A DNA stretch of 28,918 nt from positions 1-28,918 of the IMG/VR virus record IMGVR_UViG_3300020371_000044. One strand, 5' to 3'. Below the pieces are notes generated by a model. That model was not told where the DNA came from and searched no databases. It worked only from the letters and a program-made list of their open reading frames with translations. Below are positions 2,080 to 24,850 of this stretch, piece after piece (within the stretch, counting starts at the first letter, position 1; the number at the start of each line of letters is the position of its first letter). The DNA comes from a virus. A program made the position numbers and the translations under genes.

Positions 2080-2286
2080 ATGAGTTACATTAAAGTTGAA
2101 GGGCATGATGGTCTCGTTAGGGACGAGACCACAGGTGCCATCTTGAATCACGATAGTTCTGCTATTGAAGCAAGGCGTAAATTGAAGCATCTTAATTCCG
2201 CGTTGGAAGACATAAATATGTTGAAGGATGAAATCTCTGAAATTAAATCCCTACTTAGAGAGTTAGTAAAAAATGCCAGCAATTAA
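2080..2286 (+). CDS. Small coiled-coil protein, unknown function
   Basis: A 68-residue charged protein. The N-terminal part (MSYIKVEGHDGLVRDETTGA) looks like a short beta-hairpin. From about residue 29 to the end there is a heptad-like amphipathic helix with Leu/Ile spacing (LKHLNSALEDINMLKDEI and onward), predicting a coiled coil. Similar short proteins sit between structural genes in T4-like cyanophages, but I know of no assigned function. Its end overlaps the next gene by 14 bases (start at 2273), so the two are probably translationally coupled. A trimerising or chaperone role for the giant fibre downstream is possible and unproven. Confidence 0.75.
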   Translation: MSYIKVEGHDGLVRDETTGAILNHDSSAIEARRKLKHLNSALEDINMLKDEISEIKSLLRELVKNASN

Positions 2287-5200
2287 CGTCGCAAGAACAG
2301 ACACCTTTGAGACACAAAGGGTAAAAATTAATGAGATTGGAACTCAAGTATTTGCTATTACCCAAGGTGGTAGCGATCTTGCTACTGGTAACCTAAAATT
2401 GGGAGATGGCATTAGAACTGCTCCATCTCTAGCATTTACCTCTGATAATACTCTCGGTATTTACAAATCTGGAGAAAGTCAATTTGGATTTGTTGCATCT
2501 GGAAGAAAATTAGTTGATATTCAGTTAGAATCTAGTTTCTTTTATAAAGATGTTGTTGTACAAAAAAATCAGTTATTCACTGATGGAACTTCATTTTCTA
2601 GTGGTGGTTCTGGTTATGACCCAGGCGATTATAGCCAGATTTTACTTTCTGGTGGAACTGGCGGTGGTGCGTTAGCTACAATTAAAGTAGAAGAATATGT
2701 TGGTTCAGTTACAAATAGTGGAGTAAATTATAATCAAGGATCATTTTCAGATATTTTACTGATTGGAGGATCGGGAACTGGTGCTAGAGTTGAATTTACA
2801 ATTGCTGGGATAGAGGGAAATATTACTGCTGGATCTGGATATATTCCTGGTAATTACACTGGTGTATCTTTAACGGGTGGATCTGGTACTGGAGCTATAG
2901 CAGATATAACTATTACTGGGAATGTCGTTACTAGCGGATCTATTACAAATCCTGGATCTGGATATTCTAATGGAACATTTCAAGGTGTTTCCGTTGTAAA
3001 TGATCCAATTCAAACTTTTGTTTTAACGACAACTGCAAATCCTGGAACTCCGCCACCAAATAACGTATACCAAGTAGATGGAAATACTCAGCAGGTACTG
3101 AATTTTGTCATAGGAAATACATATAGATTTGATACTTCAGATCCTAGTTTAGTTGGTCATCCTCTTGGAATTGTAGACTCATCGGATCAACCATTGGGGT
3201 CTGAATTTGTTTATATTCAAAAAGGACCATTTGGACAAGTTGGATCTTTTGTTGATATTGTAATTAAACCAACAGCACAAGTACAAACTGCAAAGTATGT
3301 TTGTTTCAACCATGCTGGCATGGGTGCTAACATAAACATTATTTCTGGTACTGCTGGTCAATATGGTCATAACCTCAATGCTAACATTCAAGTAGACTTA
3401 GCTGGTCAAGTTTCAGACTTTGAAATTGTAGATTCTGGTGATGGATATCAAGTAGGTGATGTTCTTACTGCTTTTGTTGGAGATGTTGGTTCCACTGGAT
3501 CTGGATTTGAGTTTACAATTTCACAAATTAATTATCAAGGTCAAATCACAAATGTCCAAATTACAGATAATGGACAGAATTATATTCTTGGAGACACATT
3601 ATCTGCATTAAATACTGACTTATCTCCATATGGACAAGCAATCGGATCTTCTTTTTCGTATGAAATTACTTCAGAAGTAGGAAAAATAACTGAAGTTGAA
3701 TTTGCTTCTAAGGGATCTAATTATCAAACTGGGGATACATTAGCATTACCTCAACAACAAACAAATATCTCAACAACACTTCCTGGTGAAGTTACTGGAG
3801 TATCGACTACACTAAGCACAGCAACAGCACAAATAACAGTTGCTTCTACTACTGGAATTATCCAGGGAATGAATGTAATTAATAGTGGTTCTGATGTTGG
3901 AAACCTAGCACAAAACACAACTGTTTCGTCTGTTGATAGTGCAACACAAATTACACTGTCAGCAAATCCAACAATTGATGGTGCTGCTTCTCTAACATTT
4001 AGATCTCCTTCTTTAGATACAATTCAAGTAACTTCAACATCAAATATTATTATTGGTTCTACGATAGAAGTTACTTCTGGATCAGGTCAACTTAGTTCTG
4101 GAACTACAATTAATGATGTAATTGATTCAACAACTCTTAGAATTTCTGCAACTCCAGATCTAGCGGGATCAGCAGTTGTTACTATTATTCCACCATATGG
4201 AAATCCAACAACAGACTTTGAATATACTGTTGGAGATCTTGGAGTAGTAACAGAATATTCTATTACTGATGGTGGAAATGGTTACTCACTGCAAGATTCA
4301 CTTTCTGTAAATCCAACTGACCTAACACAACAGATAGTATATACTGTTGTCAATAGACAAATTGGAAAAATTGACTTTACTTCAACTTATAATTCTTCCG
4401 AATTTTCCTTATCCGATACCCTAAAGAAAAAAGATGGGGAAGTTCAAAATATTACACAAGTTTCATATCCATTAGTATCTCCAACTACAATTAGTGGTCT
4501 TACAACCACATTATCTGATGCAACTGCTGTTATCACGGTATCCAGTACAACTGGAATAGTTGCAGGAATGTTAGTTACTCAAGGCGGAGGGGATGTTGGT
4601 GTATTATCACAAGGTACAACAGTTCTTAGCGTAGATAGTGCTACTCAGATCACACTTTCTGCAGTTCCTAGTGTTGCTGGATCCGCAACTCTGGATTTCA
4701 CCACAGATGAAACTGGAGTTTATGTTGGTGTTGCTAGCACAACTTCTGGAAATGGTGTTGGAGCAACATTTGATGTACAAAGAAATTCTTTGGGTTTAGT
4801 CACCAGCGTAGCAATAAATTCTGCTGGATTTTTCTATGAAGGTGGAGATACAATAACCATTAGTGGATCTCTAATTGGAGGATCTTCTCCAACACATGAT
4901 TTAGAAATTGAAGTTGGTTCTGTAACTTTCGAACAACCAAGGGAAATTTACAAAATTGTTTTAGATGGTTCTGATATTGATTATCTAATTTTAGATCCCT
5001 CTGGATATTCTGATGGGGATGTACTAGTAAAATCTGGAACAACATCTCCAGAATACACAATCAATTCAATTACAGCAGAAGCAAATAGATTTTTCATCGA
5101 TACTGGTTCTGGATATGAGATTGAACCAAATATAACATTATATTCTGGTAACATTTATAATTTCGATTATTCAGATTCCACAAATACTGGTCATATTTTC

Positions 5201-7600
5201 AGTCTCAGTCGATATAGAGATGGTGTTTGGTATCCAAGTTTCTATGAGAATGTATCTACTACTTTAGATATATCATCCAAAACTATTACTATTGCCGATA
5301 CAACTGGAATATATCCAGGAATGACTGTAAATGTTTCATCTGGTGATGGAGCACTAGTTGCAGGCACCACAGTAGAATCAGTAGATAATTCAACCACACT
5401 TACATTATCAAGATTTCCTCTAACTTCTGGAACAGCATTATTAACAATTAGTGGTGTTGAATATACAGAAGGTGTTACTAGATCTGCTGGTTCTCTTGTT
5501 ATTAAAGTTACCGATCTAACTCCAACATTATACTACTATTGTGCTTCTCCAGCAGATGTTCATCAAAATGAAGGTGGATATGATAATGAAGAGGTACAGA
5601 TTACCATAGATCTTAACAATCCAAAAGTTTTTGGAAGTGGATTGGAAATTATTGTTGCCGATCTGACGACCACGAATGTAATTACTGCAGATGTAGATAC
5701 AGGAGATCTAACATCAATAACTGTTGCATCACAAACGGCTACATTTGGAAATGCTACTATCTCAAATAATTTGACATGTCCATTGATTACTGGACAAAAT
5801 GCAATATTTACTGGAATAACCTCAACTGGATTGACGGTATCTTCACCATCAACAACCATAAATGGCAATATTGCTGTTGGATCTACTATTACTGTCGATT
5901 CTACAACTGGCAATATTACAAGTTCTGGTGTTATAAAGTCAACATCAGCATTCAATTCTAATGATTATTTGAATATTCAAAACAATAATATTTCCTCAAC
6001 ATCTGGAAATGATATTGTTCTAACACCTTCCCCAAATAGAGTAGCAAAAGTAAACTCGACATCTGCTTTAATCATTCCTGCTGGAGATTCTTCTGCAAGA
6101 CCATCTGCTGGAGTTGTTGCCAACGGTGCTATTCGTTTCAATACCGATAGTGGTCAGTATGAAGGTTATAACGCTTCTACTACTTCATGGTCGTCTCTTG
6201 GAGGTGTACGAGACCTTGATGGTAATACTTACATCGCAGCAGAAGCTTCTGTTGGAGCAAATGACAACACCTTATACTTCTTCAATGATGGTAACAATAC
6301 GGTAAGTGTTACTCCAAACTACTTACAGTTTGTTAATGTCAAAAAGATTCGTTCTATCAACACGACTGCACCAGCATATACAGAGTATGCTACAAATACT
6401 CAGGTTACAATTGGTGATTATTTAAAATATAGAAATAACATTTATGAGGTAACCCAAACTGGTCAAACAGGAACCTCTGGTAACGAACCTACTCACACCA
6501 GCGGAGCAGCATCAAATGGAACTGCCGAACTAACTTGGTATTCTACAGCAGTTGCTCCAATTACATTTGAAGAAACTGACGAGGTTAGAATTGATCCTCT
6601 TGGATTTACGGATCTGGTTGTCAATGCTGAACTAAGATTTAGTAACAATGTAATTTCTACAGATCTCAATGATCTTATTGTTAGACCAAACACTGGTAAA
6701 AAAGTAACTATTGATACTAACACATCTCTAGTCTTGCCAGTAGGTGATACGAACCAAAGAGGTGTTGCTGCTCAAGGTTCTGTTCGTTTCAATACCACCA
6801 ACTCTACTTATGAGGGTTATGACGGAACGAACTGGGGATCTCTTGGTGGAGTAAAAGACGTTGACCAAAATACTTACATCATTCCAGAACTTTCCGCTGG
6901 ATCCGATGAAAATATTTTGTACTTCTATAATAATGGTACAAACACAATGCGTCTTTCTGAAAGCGCATTAGACTTTACCAATATTGATAGTATCACCAGT
7001 CAAAATAATAATCTAGACATTGAAGCACAAACTGTTACATTCAATAGTCTTTCTGCTACTATTGATACATCAGGAACTTCAACATTTATCCATACAACAA
7101 AGGATAACTTAGATCTTGGTTTGGCAGTTGGTATTAATGTCGATCCTTTACTGAGACTAGATACTAATGGCGATATCTATGTTAACAAAGCGTTTGGAAC
7201 AGGATCATTTGATGGACTAAAACTCATCAATAGTTCTTTTGATTCTTTTGAACTCCTTGATCTTAGAATTGACACTCAAGATATTCAACTTATCAAGGGT
7301 GGAACCAATGCTGGTGCAGCAGTTCTTTATGATCCAACATCTGATACTGGTTCTAGAGTAACAGTTTCTGTTCACAATCAGACGACTGGTGACAAGGAAA
7401 TGATTGAGTATCATGTTACCGATAAAGGAAGTGATATTTTCCACACCGATATTAGTAACCTGAACACTGGAGTAAATCAAGTGACTTCAGTATTTGACTT
7501 TGACGCTCAAAACAAAGTAAGAGTTACATTTACACTTACAGATTTGACCATTGGTGATGTTGTAAATATTACAGTAGTAACAAACACATTCAAGAAGTAA
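2273..7600 (+). CDS. Giant modular tail-fibre protein (1775 aa) with cupredoxin-like domain
   Basis: A fibre-like protein rich in Gly, Ser, Thr and Asn. The conserved-looking start is MPAINVARTDTFETQRVKIN. Residues about 105-240 carry GSGY...GGSGTGA beta repeats. Residues about 266-360 form a cupredoxin-like domain with His296, Cys344, His347 and Met350, the ligand set of a type-1 copper site. Residues about 509-1061 contain four copies of a TT(L/A)...I.V..TTGI..GM...V.S repeat, and a second, degenerate cupredoxin-like segment spans about 965-1105. Residues about 1276-1325 and 1496-1540 are two RP/QR...G.(I/V)RFNT...EGY...W.SLGGV..D.NTYI modules about 220 residues apart, separated by a TGTSGNEPTHTSG module. 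No signal peptide or catalytic motif is visible. I infer a long virion fibre; copper binding is a prediction. It ends one base before the next ATG. Confidence 0.85.
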   Translation: MPAINVARTDTFETQRVKINEIGTQVFAITQGGSDLATGNLKLGDGIRTAPSLAFTSDNTLGIYKSGESQFGFVASGRKLVDIQLESSFFYKDVVVQKNQLFTDGTSFSSGGSGYDPGDYSQILLSGGTGGGALATIKVEEYVGSVTNSGVNYNQGSFSDILLIGGSGTGARVEFTIAGIEGNITAGSGYIPGNYTGVSLTGGSGTGAIADITITGNVVTSGSITNPGSGYSNGTFQGVSVVNDPIQTFVLTTTANPGTPPPNNVYQVDGNTQQVLNFVIGNTYRFDTSDPSLVGHPLGIVDSSDQPLGSEFVYIQKGPFGQVGSFVDIVIKPTAQVQTAKYVCFNHAGMGANINIISGTAGQYGHNLNANIQVDLAGQVSDFEIVDSGDGYQVGDVLTAFVGDVGSTGSGFEFTISQINYQGQITNVQITDNGQNYILGDTLSALNTDLSPYGQAIGSSFSYEITSEVGKITEVEFASKGSNYQTGDTLALPQQQTNISTTLPGEVTGVSTTLSTATAQITVASTTGIIQGMNVINSGSDVGNLAQNTTVSSVDSATQITLSANPTIDGAASLTFRSPSLDTIQVTSTSNIIIGSTIEVTSGSGQLSSGTTINDVIDSTTLRISATPDLAGSAVVTIIPPYGNPTTDFEYTVGDLGVVTEYSITDGGNGYSLQDSLSVNPTDLTQQIVYTVVNRQIGKIDFTSTYNSSEFSLSDTLKKKDGEVQNITQVSYPLVSPTTISGLTTTLSDATAVITVSSTTGIVAGMLVTQGGGDVGVLSQGTTVLSVDSATQITLSAVPSVAGSATLDFTTDETGVYVGVASTTSGNGVGATFDVQRNSLGLVTSVAINSAGFFYEGGDTITISGSLIGGSSPTHDLEIEVGSVTFEQPREIYKIVLDGSDIDYLILDPSGYSDGDVLVKSGTTSPEYTINSITAEANRFFIDTGSGYEIEPNITLYSGNIYNFDYSDSTNTGHIFSLSRYRDGVWYPSFYENVSTTLDISSKTITIADTTGIYPGMTVNVSSGDGALVAGTTVESVDNSTTLTLSRFPLTSGTALLTISGVEYTEGVTRSAGSLVIKVTDLTPTLYYYCASPADVHQNEGGYDNEEVQITIDLNNPKVFGSGLEIIVADLTTTNVITADVDTGDLTSITVASQTATFGNATISNNLTCPLITGQNAIFTGITSTGLTVSSPSTTINGNIAVGSTITVDSTTGNITSSGVIKSTSAFNSNDYLNIQNNNISSTSGNDIVLTPSPNRVAKVNSTSALIIPAGDSSARPSAGVVANGAIRFNTDSGQYEGYNASTTSWSSLGGVRDLDGNTYIAAEASVGANDNTLYFFNDGNNTVSVTPNYLQFVNVKKIRSINTTAPAYTEYATNTQVTIGDYLKYRNNIYEVTQTGQTGTSGNEPTHTSGAASNGTAELTWYSTAVAPITFEETDEVRIDPLGFTDLVVNAELRFSNNVISTDLNDLIVRPNTGKKVTIDTNTSLVLPVGDTNQRGVAAQGSVRFNTTNSTYEGYDGTNWGSLGGVKDVDQNTYIIPELSAGSDENILYFYNNGTNTMRLSESALDFTNIDSITSQNNNLDIEAQTVTFNSLSATIDTSGTSTFIHTTKDNLDLGLAVGINVDPLLRLDTNGDIYVNKAFGTGSFDGLKLINSSFDSFELLDLRIDTQDIQLIKGGTNAGAAVLYDPTSDTGSRVTVSVHNQTTGDKEMIEYHVTDKGSDIFHTDISNLNTGVNQVTSVFDFDAQNKVRVTFTLTDLTIGDVVNITVVTNTFKK
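3797..5455 (+). repeat. TTG-I repeats in the 1775-residue fibre
   Basis: Four copies, at residues about 509-578, 581-640, 740-810 and 994-1061, of a 60-70-residue unit. The common core is I.V.(S/D)TTGI..GM followed by TTV.SVD.(A/S)T..TLS..P and a final strand. Copies 1 and 3 are closest (SVDSATQITLSA in both). They are probably beta-sandwich spacers lengthening the fibre. Copy 2 is the most diverged. Confidence 0.75.
6098..6897 (+). repeat. Tandem RFNT-SLGGV modules in the 1775-residue fibre
   Basis: Two copies start at residues 1276 and 1496, 220 residues apart. Each reads (RP/QR)...G.(I/V)RFNT....YEGY......W.SLGGV.D.D.NTYI. They are relatives of the N-terminal anchors of the short fibres. 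Confidence 0.7.
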
Positions 7601-17480: not shown

Positions 17481-18176
17481 ATGAAATTATATAATACCAG
17501 TGAAGTTTTTGAAATAAATGAAGAACTAGATTGCGACTTAATCAAAGAAGAATGGGGTTCTTATATTAGAGTAAAAAATTTTTGGAAGAATCCAGAAAAG
17601 GTTAAAGAAGTATTTTTGAATTCTCCATGCCATCCTCTTTCTGGAGCATGTTATGCTACAGAAAATGGCACAAAATATTTTGATGGTAGAAATGAAATTT
17701 GTTTCATGGATCAACCACAATTCTCAAATGTTGTTTTTTATATTATTTGTAAATACTTCAATATAGATAATCGATTTTTAGATTTGAAATGGAAGTTGCC
17801 AACTATTTTATTTGGTAATGTTTTTCAAATGTATGATAGAAATTCAAATCCATTTGACACACATTACTATGCTCCACACAGAGATGGTTTGAATCAAATT
17901 GCATGTACATGGTATATGAATGAAAATTATGTTGATGGGGAAGGAACCTCCATATATGATAAAAGCATTTCCGAGACAGAAGAATGCTACCTAAATATCA
18001 TTGACAGTCCGTGGACTAAATCTGTTGAAAGAGTAGGGCACATCCAAGCAGAATACAATAGTTTGGTAATCTATGATGGAAGCATTCCCCACGGTCAGTC
18101 AGTTACAGAAAGATGGTTTTCAGAACCTCGTCTCTCCTTAGTTCAATTTTTTATTGATAAAAGAGTTTATAAGTAA
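17481..18176 (+). CDS. Putative 2OG/Fe(II) oxygenase, DUF6445-like
   Basis: A 231-residue protein with the double-stranded beta-helix oxygenase pattern: an HxD metal motif at His133-Arg-Asp135 (APHRDG), a distal His204 (SIPHG) and a likely 2-oxoglutarate-binding Arg217 (EPRLSL). The N-terminal VKNFWKNPEKVKEVFL resembles the start of DUF6445/prolyl-hydroxylase-like proteins as I remember them. Such enzymes couple oxidation of 2-oxoglutarate to hydroxylation of a substrate. It follows a fibre gene by 10 bases, and its stop overlaps the next start by one base (TAATG). The start lacks a clear ribosome-binding site. The substrate is unknown; the adjacent fibre, a nucleobase or a host metabolite are all possible. 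Confidence 0.78.
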   Translation: MKLYNTSEVFEINEELDCDLIKEEWGSYIRVKNFWKNPEKVKEVFLNSPCHPLSGACYATENGTKYFDGRNEICFMDQPQFSNVVFYIICKYFNIDNRFLDLKWKLPTILFGNVFQMYDRNSNPFDTHYYAPHRDGLNQIACTWYMNENYVDGEGTSIYDKSISETEECYLNIIDSPWTKSVERVGHIQAEYNSLVIYDGSIPHGQSVTERWFSEPRLSLVQFFIDKRVYK

Positions 18177-18843: not shown

Positions 18844-19470
18844 ATGTCATACTCGATAAAAAATGTGCCTTTGTTTCCAACTCTTATTCATGAGAGTCAT
18901 GGAATGTTCAAAGATGAATATATTGAAAAACTTATAACAACCTGCAAGTCTTTAGAGTTTATTTCGGGAAATTATGACGTAAAGCAATCGATTGATAGTT
19001 ACTTACATAGAGATGATAGATTTATCAAAATTTGTATGTATGTAAAAGCTTTATTGAGATCAATAAAAATTGCCGAAGTCTATGATACTACAGATTTTGA
19101 AATTTCTCAAATGTGGGTGAATGTTTGTGAGAAGGGAGTAGCACATCATCAACATTGGCACGCAAATTCATTTTTCAGTGGAATTATTTACTTGACAGGT
19201 GGAGCACCAACTGTATTTTATGATCCAGTTATTGGTAGGCAGATGTCTTCTTTAAATGTTTGGGCAGAGACAACACAACCAGCAATTTCTTTAGAATCAA
19301 AACCTGGGTTAATTCGTATTTTTCCAAGTTATCTCCAGCATAAAACTTTACCAAACGATGGTGATGAAGATAGAATTAGTATTAGTTTCAATGCAATCCC
19401 AGTTGGTGAAGTGAATACAAGAAATCCATACACTCGATTATCTCAATTAAAGATTTCACAAACGGAATAA
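18844..19470 (+). CDS. Putative 2OG/Fe(II) oxygenase (TIGR02466/PF13759-like)
   Basis: A 208-residue protein matching the pattern of the small 2OG-Fe(II) oxygenase family annotated TIGR02466/PF13759. It has MWVNVCEKG, then His104-Trp-His106 followed by an NSFFSG turn, then VFYDP, then GLIRIFPSYLQH with His166, and Arg177 eleven residues later in DRISISFN. The HxH in place of HxD is shared with the 21268 and 25084 genes. The order of these residues supports the fold; activity is not proven. It starts two bases after the preceding stop. Its TAA stop lies inside an AATAAATA late-promoter box for the next fibre. Confidence 0.78.
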   Translation: MSYSIKNVPLFPTLIHESHGMFKDEYIEKLITTCKSLEFISGNYDVKQSIDSYLHRDDRFIKICMYVKALLRSIKIAEVYDTTDFEISQMWVNVCEKGVAHHQHWHANSFFSGIIYLTGGAPTVFYDPVIGRQMSSLNVWAETTQPAISLESKPGLIRIFPSYLQHKTLPNDGDEDRISISFNAIPVGEVNTRNPYTRLSQLKISQTE

Positions 19471-20488: not shown

Positions 20489-21271
20489 ATGAATAAAACT
20501 TACTTTTTTATGTCTGGTCTTCCCCGATCAGGGAATACCTTATTGTCTTGTATTCTAAATCAAAATCCAGATCTTCACGTTAGTCCAAACTCCCCAGTAT
20601 CATACCTCACGTATCAACTCAATAGAGTTATACGAATGAGAGAGGAGTATATTGGATATCCAAAACCCAATTTTGTGGGTGACATGATTGTCTCAGTAGT
20701 AGATAATTACTATAAAGATATTGATAAAAAATATATTATCGATCGTTCTGGCACTTGGGGTGTCATGGATAATCTACAGATTGCTAAAGATTTTATAAAT
20801 CCAAAACCAAAAGTTATTTGTCCAGTAAGAAATATCACAGATATACTAACATCTTTTATTTCTCTCTGCGATAAAAATCCAGATAATTTTATTGATAAAA
20901 GGATTGTTTCCCCATCTAATGAAAACCGATGTGAGTTCCTGATGAAGAAAGGATCTATGATTGATGTTTGCTTAGATTCTTATTTGTCAGCACTATTTCC
21001 AGATTTTGAAAATTGTTTTCTTTTCTTGGAGTATGACGATATTGTTTTTAATACAAGTCAAACTTTAAAAAATATTTACGAGTTCTTAGATTTAGATTTT
21101 TATAATCATGATCTAAAAAACATATCATCATATGGTGGATATAATGATTCTATATTTGGAATGCCTCTACATGAGGTAAGATCTAACATAGAAAAGAAAT
21201 CAAAAAATCCAAAGGAAGTTTTGGGAGAAAAATTGTTTTTGAAGTATAGTAATTTAGAGAACTGGAAATGA
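20489..21271 (+). CDS. Sulfotransferase, PAPS-dependent (P-loop family)
   Basis: A 260-residue protein with both cofactor motifs of sulfotransferases. The 5'-phosphosulfate loop is SGLPRSGNTLL at residues 9-19, and the 3'-phosphate motif has Arg114 and Ser122 eight residues apart in CPVRNITDILTSF. These enzymes move sulfate from PAPS to hydroxyls or amines of glycans, tyrosines or small molecules, so the phage would use host PAPS. The DRSGTWG segment before the second motif matches the layout of the PF13469 branch. No membrane anchor or signal peptide is seen, suggesting cytoplasmic action. It starts three bases after a fibre stop and overlaps the next oxygenase by four bases (ATGA). The acceptor is unknown; nearby fibres are the obvious candidates by position. 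Confidence 0.88.
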   Translation: MNKTYFFMSGLPRSGNTLLSCILNQNPDLHVSPNSPVSYLTYQLNRVIRMREEYIGYPKPNFVGDMIVSVVDNYYKDIDKKYIIDRSGTWGVMDNLQIAKDFINPKPKVICPVRNITDILTSFISLCDKNPDNFIDKRIVSPSNENRCEFLMKKGSMIDVCLDSYLSALFPDFENCFLFLEYDDIVFNTSQTLKNIYEFLDLDFYNHDLKNISSYGGYNDSIFGMPLHEVRSNIEKKSKNPKEVLGEKLFLKYSNLENWK

Positions 21272-21840
21272 GTGAAGTTAAATTAGGATGTAGTTTGATT
21301 CATAGATTTGAATATAATTTCACTGAAGAGTATATAAAAAATATTGTAGGCAAACTAAAATTTACTTCTATTCCTCTAGAGACTGGAACAGCAGCTTCTT
21401 CTGTAAATGATCCTGAGTGTAAACCACATGAAATTGAAGAGAACGCAGATTTTCTGGAATGGTTAAATGAAAAGATAAGGGAAGTTTTCATAGATTGGGA
21501 GTACCCATCTAGACTACCGTATCATGTTTATAGTTCTTGGGCAAATGTTCATCATAAAACTGGACAAACAGAAGAACATAATCATGCCCTAACAAATATG
21601 GTAGTATCTTGTTATTTGAAATGTCCAGAAAATTCAGGTAACATTCTGTTTAGAGATCCAATACATGACTATAGATCTATGGAACCTATTATGTCTGGAA
21701 GTAATCCATGGAGAGAAATAAAAGTAACAACTGGAGATGTTTTGATATTTCCTGGGTGGTTGTACCATAAAACACAACGAAGTTCTACTGATGAATCTAG
21801 GATTGTATGCACTTACAATATAAAAGCAGATTTCAAATAA
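21268..21840 (+). CDS. Putative 2OG/Fe(II) oxygenase (TIGR02466/PF13759-like)
   Basis: A 190-residue protein with the same layout as the 18844 gene: SWANVHHKTGQ, then His104-Asn-His106, then NILFRDP, then GDVLIFPGWLYH with His167, and Arg178 eleven residues later in ESRIVCTYN. The near-identical residue positions of the metal and cosubstrate candidates argue that the two are paralogues or members of one family. It overlaps the sulfotransferase by ATGA, implying translational coupling. Its TAA stop is part of a late-promoter box for the next fibre. The substrate is unknown. The tight coupling hints that sulfation and hydroxylation act in one pathway, which is inference. Confidence 0.8.
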   Translation: MSEVKLGCSLIHRFEYNFTEEYIKNIVGKLKFTSIPLETGTAASSVNDPECKPHEIEENADFLEWLNEKIREVFIDWEYPSRLPYHVYSSWANVHHKTGQTEEHNHALTNMVVSCYLKCPENSGNILFRDPIHDYRSMEPIMSGSNPWREIKVTTGDVLIFPGWLYHKTQRSSTDESRIVCTYNIKADFK

Positions 21841-23731: not shown

Positions 23732-24850
23732 ATGTCATCTCTAAATGTTGGAAGTATCATAACTTCTGTTGGAGTTCAGTTGCCAGTTTATACCAACGCA
23801 TCAAGACCAACAACTGCCGATGTTGGTTTTATGATATTCAATTCCGATATTGGAGATGTTGAAATTTATGGTAGCACTGGTTGGAAACCAGTTGGTAAAG
23901 GTGCTTTTGGAACAGAGTTTTCAGTTACATCTGTTTTGGAAGGCGGAACTGGAGTTGGAAATTACGATCTATCAAATGGTTCGGTTACATTCCTATCATC
24001 TGGATACTATGTAATGAATGCTCCAACATCTATGAAAATTAAAGTTCAAATGTGGGGTGCTGGTGGTGGCGGAGCAAACTCTGCTACACCAAACCATGGT
24101 TCCGCTGGTGGATATACAGAGGGAATTTTAGAATTAGATGCTGGAAATTATACCTTTATTGTTGGTAAAGGTGGACAAGGTTTAGGAACTGGTAAAGTTG
24201 GTGGATATCCAGATGGTGGTGATGGTGGAACATCTGGAGCAAACTCAGCCGCTGGTGGTGGATCTACAAGATTTGGTCCAGAGGTATCAGAATCGAATAA
24301 AAATGCTTCATCTACTCAGTATTATTTGATTGCTGGTGGTGGCGGTGGTGGATGTAACTGGGCATACACTAGCGAAGTAAATGCTACTGATGGAGGTGGA
24401 GAAGGTGGTGGTACTACTGGTGGTCGTGGATCATATCACTATCTAAACTATGAAAATATTTACACTTTAGGATTAGGTGGAACTCAAACTGCTGGCGGTG
24501 AAGGTGGCGGAACTTACAATAATGGTGTAGTTGGTCGTTTAGGAAACGGAGATTCTGGAGCAAAATACCAGGGAGGAGACGGCACTGGCGGCGGTGGCGG
24601 TGGCGGTTACTACGGCGGTGGAGGCGCTAGAGGTTATTATTCATCTGGTGGTGGTGGATCTGGTTATGTAGCAAGTGTTTCTCAAGTTCAAAGTGGAAAC
24701 ACTTACCGAGGTGGTACTGGATTTGGTTTGGAATACTATGAAGCAGGAGCTCCTAGTGGAATCTCTGTTCCAAGTGGAGTCGCTGATGGAGGAACAAACA
24801 GTGGTGGCAATGGCGGTGATGGTGCTATAATTATTAGCGATGCTCAGTGA
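23732..24850 (+). CDS. Glycine-rich adhesin with ALK-type Gly-rich domain (372 aa)
   Basis: Residues 25-51 carry the anchor RPTTADVGFMIFN...W. From residue 107 the MWGAGGGG motif opens a long region of Gly runs (GGGGGG, GGYYGGGGARG, SSGGGGSGYV) separated by strand-like pieces such as YTFIVGKGGQG. This resembles ALK/LTK-type glycine-rich domains, whose structures pack polyglycine-II helices. The same packing occurs in the gp38 adhesins of some T-even phages (for example S16), which sit at fibre tips and bind receptors. It ends in DGAIIISDAQ, a typical final strand. I infer a tip adhesin or receptor-binding protein on the common anchor. It is preceded by a late-promoter box, and GAAG lies just upstream of the ATG. 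Confidence 0.82.
   Translation: MSSLNVGSIITSVGVQLPVYTNASRPTTADVGFMIFNSDIGDVEIYGSTGWKPVGKGAFGTEFSVTSVLEGGTGVGNYDLSNGSVTFLSSGYYVMNAPTSMKIKVQMWGAGGGGANSATPNHGSAGGYTEGILELDAGNYTFIVGKGGQGLGTGKVGGYPDGGDGGTSGANSAAGGGSTRFGPEVSESNKNASSTQYYLIAGGGGGGCNWAYTSEVNATDGGGEGGGTTGGRGSYHYLNYENIYTLGLGGTQTAGGEGGGTYNNGVVGRLGNGDSGAKYQGGDGTGGGGGGGYYGGGGARGYYSSGGGGSGYVASVSQVQSGNTYRGGTGFGLEYYEAGAPSGISVPSGVADGGTNSGGNGGDGAIIISDAQ

Follow-up and report, generated by a model that had tools for sequence, protein, structure and literature searches.

Results

In this study, residues 245–360 of a 1775-aa phage virion protein were confidently predicted to form a cupredoxin domain of the two-sheet Greek-key type, and the placement of four of its residues fits the type-1 copper pattern in the predicted strands, the profile alignment and the conservation among relatives. 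We believe it fairly probable that this domain is a cupredoxin module grafted into a baseplate or fibre protein, where a bound metal, probably copper, would stabilise it in a spacer or adhesion role.

The carrier protein and its gene neighbourhood

The virus record that forms the window, that is, the whole stretch of DNA analysed, is 28,918 bases long and belongs to a T4-like, cyanomyophage-type phage. An ORF without internal stop at 2273..7600 (plus strand) encodes the 1775-aa carrier protein, which matched phrog_6005 ('virion structural protein') with 1895 bits and, as a second family, phrog_32294 ('baseplate wedge subunit'). The protein had 45–47% identity over 94–98% of its length to proteins of the Synechococcus phages S-H9-2, S-H9-1 and ACG-2014h, and the S-CAM4 homologue was likewise 45–47% identical over nearly the full length. 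In ACG-2014h (S-MbCM7), the gene of the gp7 baseplate wedge initiator is followed, in this order, by a small ORF, T4-GC_350 (the homologue of our ORF), the structural gene T4-GC_512 and a giant gene. The window has the same order downstream of the ORF, with an adjoining phrog_5449 gene followed by a phrog_5342 tail-fibre giant. The 98% coverage and the gene order shared with S-MbCM7 place the protein in T4-GC 350 / phrog_6005. The sequence-only reading had called it a tail fibre. This label is loose, because the relatives are annotated as virion structural or baseplate-wedge proteins beside gp7. Given the phrog families and the gene order, a safer description is 'baseplate-region virion structural protein with fibre-like parts'. 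The protein has three Cys only, and two of them stand at cupredoxin ligand positions (Cys344 and Cys1090).

Other genes of the window were also annotated. Genes for 2OG-Fe(II) oxygenases (PF13759; PF13640 below its cut-off) were found among the tail and neck structural genes at 18844–19470, 21268–21840 and, weakly, 17481–18176. A sulfotransferase-like gene (PF00685, E 2e-10) lies amid structural genes at 20489–21271, and 23732–24850 encodes a glycine-rich protein, perhaps a fibre tip, which matched the ALK/LTK glycine-rich domain PF12810 with an E value of 2e-13.

Ligand residues and predicted fold of copy 1

The domain at residues 245–360 (3005..3352, plus strand), here called copy 1, was delimited with AlphaFold2, Foldseek and VIA-align. 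All four candidate ligands are encoded on the plus strand, and their conservation was counted in a non-redundant set of 47 relatives. His296 (3158..3160), at type-1 ligand position 1, is kept in 46/47 relatives and is followed by Pro, as in the HP motif of multicopper oxidases. Cys344 (3302..3304), at position 2, is kept in all 47, and His347 (3311..3313), at position 3, in 46. At the axial position, Met350 (3320..3322) is Met in 44 relatives and Glu in the other three. The numbering of these residues given earlier, with His296 in a GH pair and the other three in CFNHAGM, agreed exactly with the translation of the ORF, and CFNHAGM at 344–350 does form the short amicyanin-type loop C-x2-H-x2-M that had been described. 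This pattern occurs once in the 1775-aa protein against 7e-5 expected from composition; the motif is more than chance because the relatives keep it.

The AlphaFold2 model of residues 245–360, built with the 47 relatives in the alignment, had a mean pLDDT of 96.6 and nine strands. In this model, the loop preceding strand 54–58 (domain numbering) is predicted to contain His296, strand 94–100 ends in Cys344, and the loop preceding strand 108–113 contains both His347 and Met350. A cupredoxin fold had been proposed from the letters, and the model likewise predicts it; at the level of topology, the four residues are placed in the cupredoxin arrangement and not apart. When the model was compared with the PDB by Foldseek, rusticyanin ranked first (E 2.6e-4, 17% identity), and NirK, laccases and plastocyanin were among the further matches. 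In VIA-align, 100 residues of the N-terminal domain of Hyphomicrobium NirK (2dv6) matched with Z 9.0 and 2.6 Å, and the Z values of small laccases were similar. A Z of about 9 is moderate, and identity in the structural matches was 8–21%; yet nearly all listed matches were cupredoxin domains of copper proteins.

The link of copy 1 to copper proteins by sequence was weak but consistent. In a PDB profile search with the copy 1 family, the top match was the copper oxidase 6vox (E 0.005), whose HP motif aligned with the His-Pro at ligand 1; plastocyanins followed at E 0.035 amid antibody noise. The antibody light chains, which matched via a generic 'YYC' strand, were taken as background. The hhalign comparison of the copy 1 family with PF00127-type proteins (60 genomes) reached an E value of 7e-7 and a probability of 92%. 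With a narrower profile of the pseudoazurin/amicyanin type, all four ligands were in register with the ligands of L201, a protein related to the amicyanin of the PDB, although the match was statistically weaker (E 3e-4). A Pfam search with the whole ORF protein and with the copy 1 domain alone gave nothing above threshold, as did phmmer against PDB sequences. The Pfam and NCBIfam search over the 47 relatives yielded sub-threshold matches only, including Copper-bind, rusticyanin, halocyanin and plastocyanin; the gathering cut-off of PF00127 Copper-bind was not reached, and three of the 47 relatives matched it weakly (best E 0.021).

Ligand conservation across copies

The His-Cys-His-Met set (HCHM) was found in 174/182 distinct full copies of the domain. 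After clustering at 70% identity, conservation was highest at Cys, followed closely by the two His, which tied with Phe42; after clustering at 50%, HCHM was present in 21/24 copies. Because the single pattern of the first scan contained Cys and His, the count was repeated with ligand-free patterns, and HCHM was then found in 96/96 copies (76/76 viral and 20/20 from genome assemblies). Chance and ascertainment bias were rejected as the source of the ligand set on the 7e-5 expectation, the clustering and this last count. In one divergent copy-1 domain (L003:4001-4351), both His were replaced together, by Tyr and Asp, with Cys and Met retained.

A second copy with a nested module

A second cupredoxin copy, which the sequence-only reading did not contain, was found in the same protein at about residues 937–1102 (5084–5578). 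This copy is interrupted. With the inserted module it was modelled as residues 926–1120 (5048..5632, plus strand), with profile matches at 5084–5266 and 5459–5578. The model had a pLDDT of 92, and its structural matches were NirK (Z 8.9, 98 residues) and rusticyanin. Alignment with its homologues put His974 (5192..5194), Cys1090 (5540..5542) and His1097 (5561..5563; C-x6-H) at ligand positions 1 to 3, and Glu1100 (5570..5572) at the axial position, all on the plus strand. The insert itself, residues 995–1066 (5255..5470, plus strand), is a phage-decoration-like module of about 70 residues, of which the protein has three further repeats at residues 511–576, 581–638 and 745–809; it matched the virion chain 8eci_1 of Arthrobacter phage Bridgette with Z 8.5 and 1.7 Å over 66 residues at 29% identity.

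Copy 2 was compared in 32 homologues, with one row from another repeat left out. His-Cys-His was retained in 23/32. In the other nine, Cys and His2 were lost together in every case (9/9), and His1 was lost in 7/9. On a tree built without the ligand columns, Cys and His2 each changed independently at least four times, His1 three times, and the axial residue (Met, Glu and others) at least nine times. Free variation is confined to the axial residue (Met, Glu, Gln), as it is in known type-1 sites. A phylogenetic sign test on the joint loss in copy 2 was not significant, with few independent events, and so we claim only a consistent direction of joint loss. The spacing from Cys to His ranges from 2 to 10 residues (L060:5579-6121, L013 and L057 compared with copy 2 of the window). 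Three ligands that vary tightly together, beside a loosely kept axial residue, are the pattern that a type-1-like metal site predicts. Site-less forms of copy 2 persist in L002, L006, L050 and L059, and some copies in the proteins of about 3500 aa of S-H9-1 and ACG-2014h are without His1. Since site-less copies persist, the metal is dispensable for the fold in some settings.

Distribution in phages and cells

Similar domains had been suggested to recur in marine phage proteins, and this was borne out. A tblastn search with the domain of a relative matched 322/50,697 phage records, all of them Synechococcus, Prochlorococcus, other cyanophage, Pelagibacter, Methylophilales, marine single-cell, metagenome or unassigned phages. 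The whole-genome profile scan gave 1–5 domain matches each in 13/13 marine phages, and zero in T4. A copy lies in gp7 of P-HM1, others lie in the tail fibres of a pelagiphage and a Methylophilales phage, and Syn9 has copies at the C-terminus of its T4 gp10-like wedge/fibre connector and in the neighbouring wedge subunit. Whole-virion proteomics exists for the cyanomyophages S-PM2, Syn9 and S-SM1 (PMC3037559). With regard to an origin from phage plastocyanin, none of the genes under the domain matches listed was annotated as plastocyanin.

A cellular relative was found in a chromosomal SAR86 protein (L095:5380-6321), which begins like a lipoprotein and ends in the cupredoxin domain; the neighbours of its gene encode a ferritin-like protein, a DUF4149 protein and a CGFS-type glutaredoxin. 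Further SAR86 relatives are L094, L096, L097, L099 and L102. The SAR86 lipoprotein-like gene is possibly the cellular source of the domain, or a parallel use of it. Phage genes present in single-cell or metagenome assemblies may account for several other 'cellular' matches, such as L100, which looks like a tail fibre.

Discussion

Judging from the conserved ligands and the models, we consider it very likely that the domain binds a metal, and that metal is probably copper. The domain sits in virion proteins of the gp7-like, gp10-like, baseplate-wedge and fibre kinds, and in this context a structural or adhesive role, rather than a redox one, is most likely. We infer that the domain folds as apo-protein in the cytoplasm of the host and that a soft metal, copper being the most likely, is taken up in the infected cell or from lysate or sea water, the loading route being conjecture. 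Once bound, the metal would fix the loops at one end of the beta sandwich. The baseplate would thus gain a stiff spacer or presentation module that withstands stress, is made without disulfides and is possibly positioned near the receptor-contact surface. The analysis gave nothing in favour of the binding to host copper proteins that the sequence-only reading had proposed. Such a metal clamp would suit proteins that have almost no cysteines and are folded in a reducing cytoplasm.

Virion assembly is cytoplasmic, and free copper is very scarce there, which counts against copper as the metal. The same assembly route favours a purely structural site filled in the particle by another metal, for example Zn(II) acquired in the cytoplasm, which has more available zinc than copper. 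Cupredoxin sites accept zinc when they are produced in E. coli, and the axial Glu that is frequent in copy 2 is unusual for natural type-1 copper. However, copy 1 has Cys, His, His and Met as its ligand set, with the Met kept in 44/47 relatives; such a set is characteristic of copper sites and not of zinc sites, and the SAR86 relatives carry it on an apparently exported lipoprotein; a zinc site is in our opinion rather unlikely. The domain might also bind no metal at all and be an Ig-like adhesive or spacer domain of cupredoxin descent, in which packing or recent ancestry has kept Cys, His and Met. Metal-free Ig-like domains are common on phage virions, and the site-less copies described above do exist and persist. 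Against this stand the rank of the ligands among the most conserved columns at 70% clustering, the 21/24 copies with HCHM at 50%, and the loss of ligands jointly rather than singly; moreover, a retained unpaired Cys in a protein with three Cys is hard to explain otherwise. The chance that the site is metal-free therefore seems slim.

A different possibility is that the site is redox-active. It could be a real blue-copper centre that passes electrons to or from a surface or periplasmic partner of the host while the phage adsorbs or penetrates, or it could sense copper or redox state and trigger a change of the baseplate. The full four-ligand set of an electron-transfer site is retained, the nearest structural matches are to electron-transfer proteins or to domains of oxidases, and copper redox matters in the hosts, since cyanophages carry the plastocyanin gene petE (PMC3037559). 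However, neither a partner, a neighbouring redox cofactor nor an enzyme domain was found in the protein, the domain also occurs in phages of the non-photosynthetic hosts Pelagibacter and Methylophilales, and its spread over many different virion proteins is more in keeping with a building block than with a redox relay. We regard redox activity as quite unlikely. A bolder proposal, that marine phages bear several functional blue-copper (type-1) centres each on their baseplates and fibres for metal- or redox-dependent attachment or triggering, is possible but doubtful; if it were correct, such centres would be a metalloprotein class newly recognised in virions, and infection would be tied to ocean copper.

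Our preferred reading of a metal-stabilised cupredoxin module has consequences of its own. Should the site bind copper, the particles of hundreds of sequenced marine phages, which are related to some of the sea's most abundant viruses, would bear copper centres as an unrecognised class of virion metalloprotein. Copper would then offer a disulfide-free way to stabilise fibres assembled in the cytoplasm, virioplankton would hold a small copper pool, and copper availability might affect adsorption. A domain now annotated as 'hypothetical' or 'virion structural' in public records also gains a testable identity.

Comparison with known systems

Type-1 cupredoxins such as rusticyanin, the N-terminal domain of NirK and amicyanin/pseudoazurin share with the phage domain the fold, as predicted, and the positions of His and Cys-x2-His-x2-Met. 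In contrast to them, the phage domain lies inside a 1775-aa virion protein, falls below the Pfam and NCBIfam cut-offs, and has Pro rather than Asn after His1. Amicyanin has the same C-x2-H-x2-M loop, but it is a small secreted protein with a signal peptide, whereas the phage domain is internal to a protein whose N-terminus (start MPAINVARTDTF) has no signal sequence apparent by eye. Multicopper oxidases share the fold, and the His-Pro at ligand 1 aligns to the HP of 6vox; the phage protein differs in having neither the His-x-His motifs of type-2/type-3 copper, which are absent among all its 11 His positions, nor a Pfam Cu-oxidase match. Virion Ig-like domains and metal-bearing fibre or spike tips are likewise recurrent beta-sandwich modules or cases of a metal stabilising virion proteins, but they belong to another fold family or use other ligands, and their metals are mostly iron or zinc. 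The petE plastocyanin that cyanophages are known to carry (PMC3037559) is also a copper-site fold in cyanophages, but it is a stand-alone photosynthesis gene. No description of cupredoxin domains in phage virions was found in the open-access papers searched. By its predicted fold, the phage domain is a cupredoxin, which lies outside PF00127 at the Pfam threshold and outside amicyanin and multicopper oxidase, and it combines a known fold and site with a setting that is apparently unreported.
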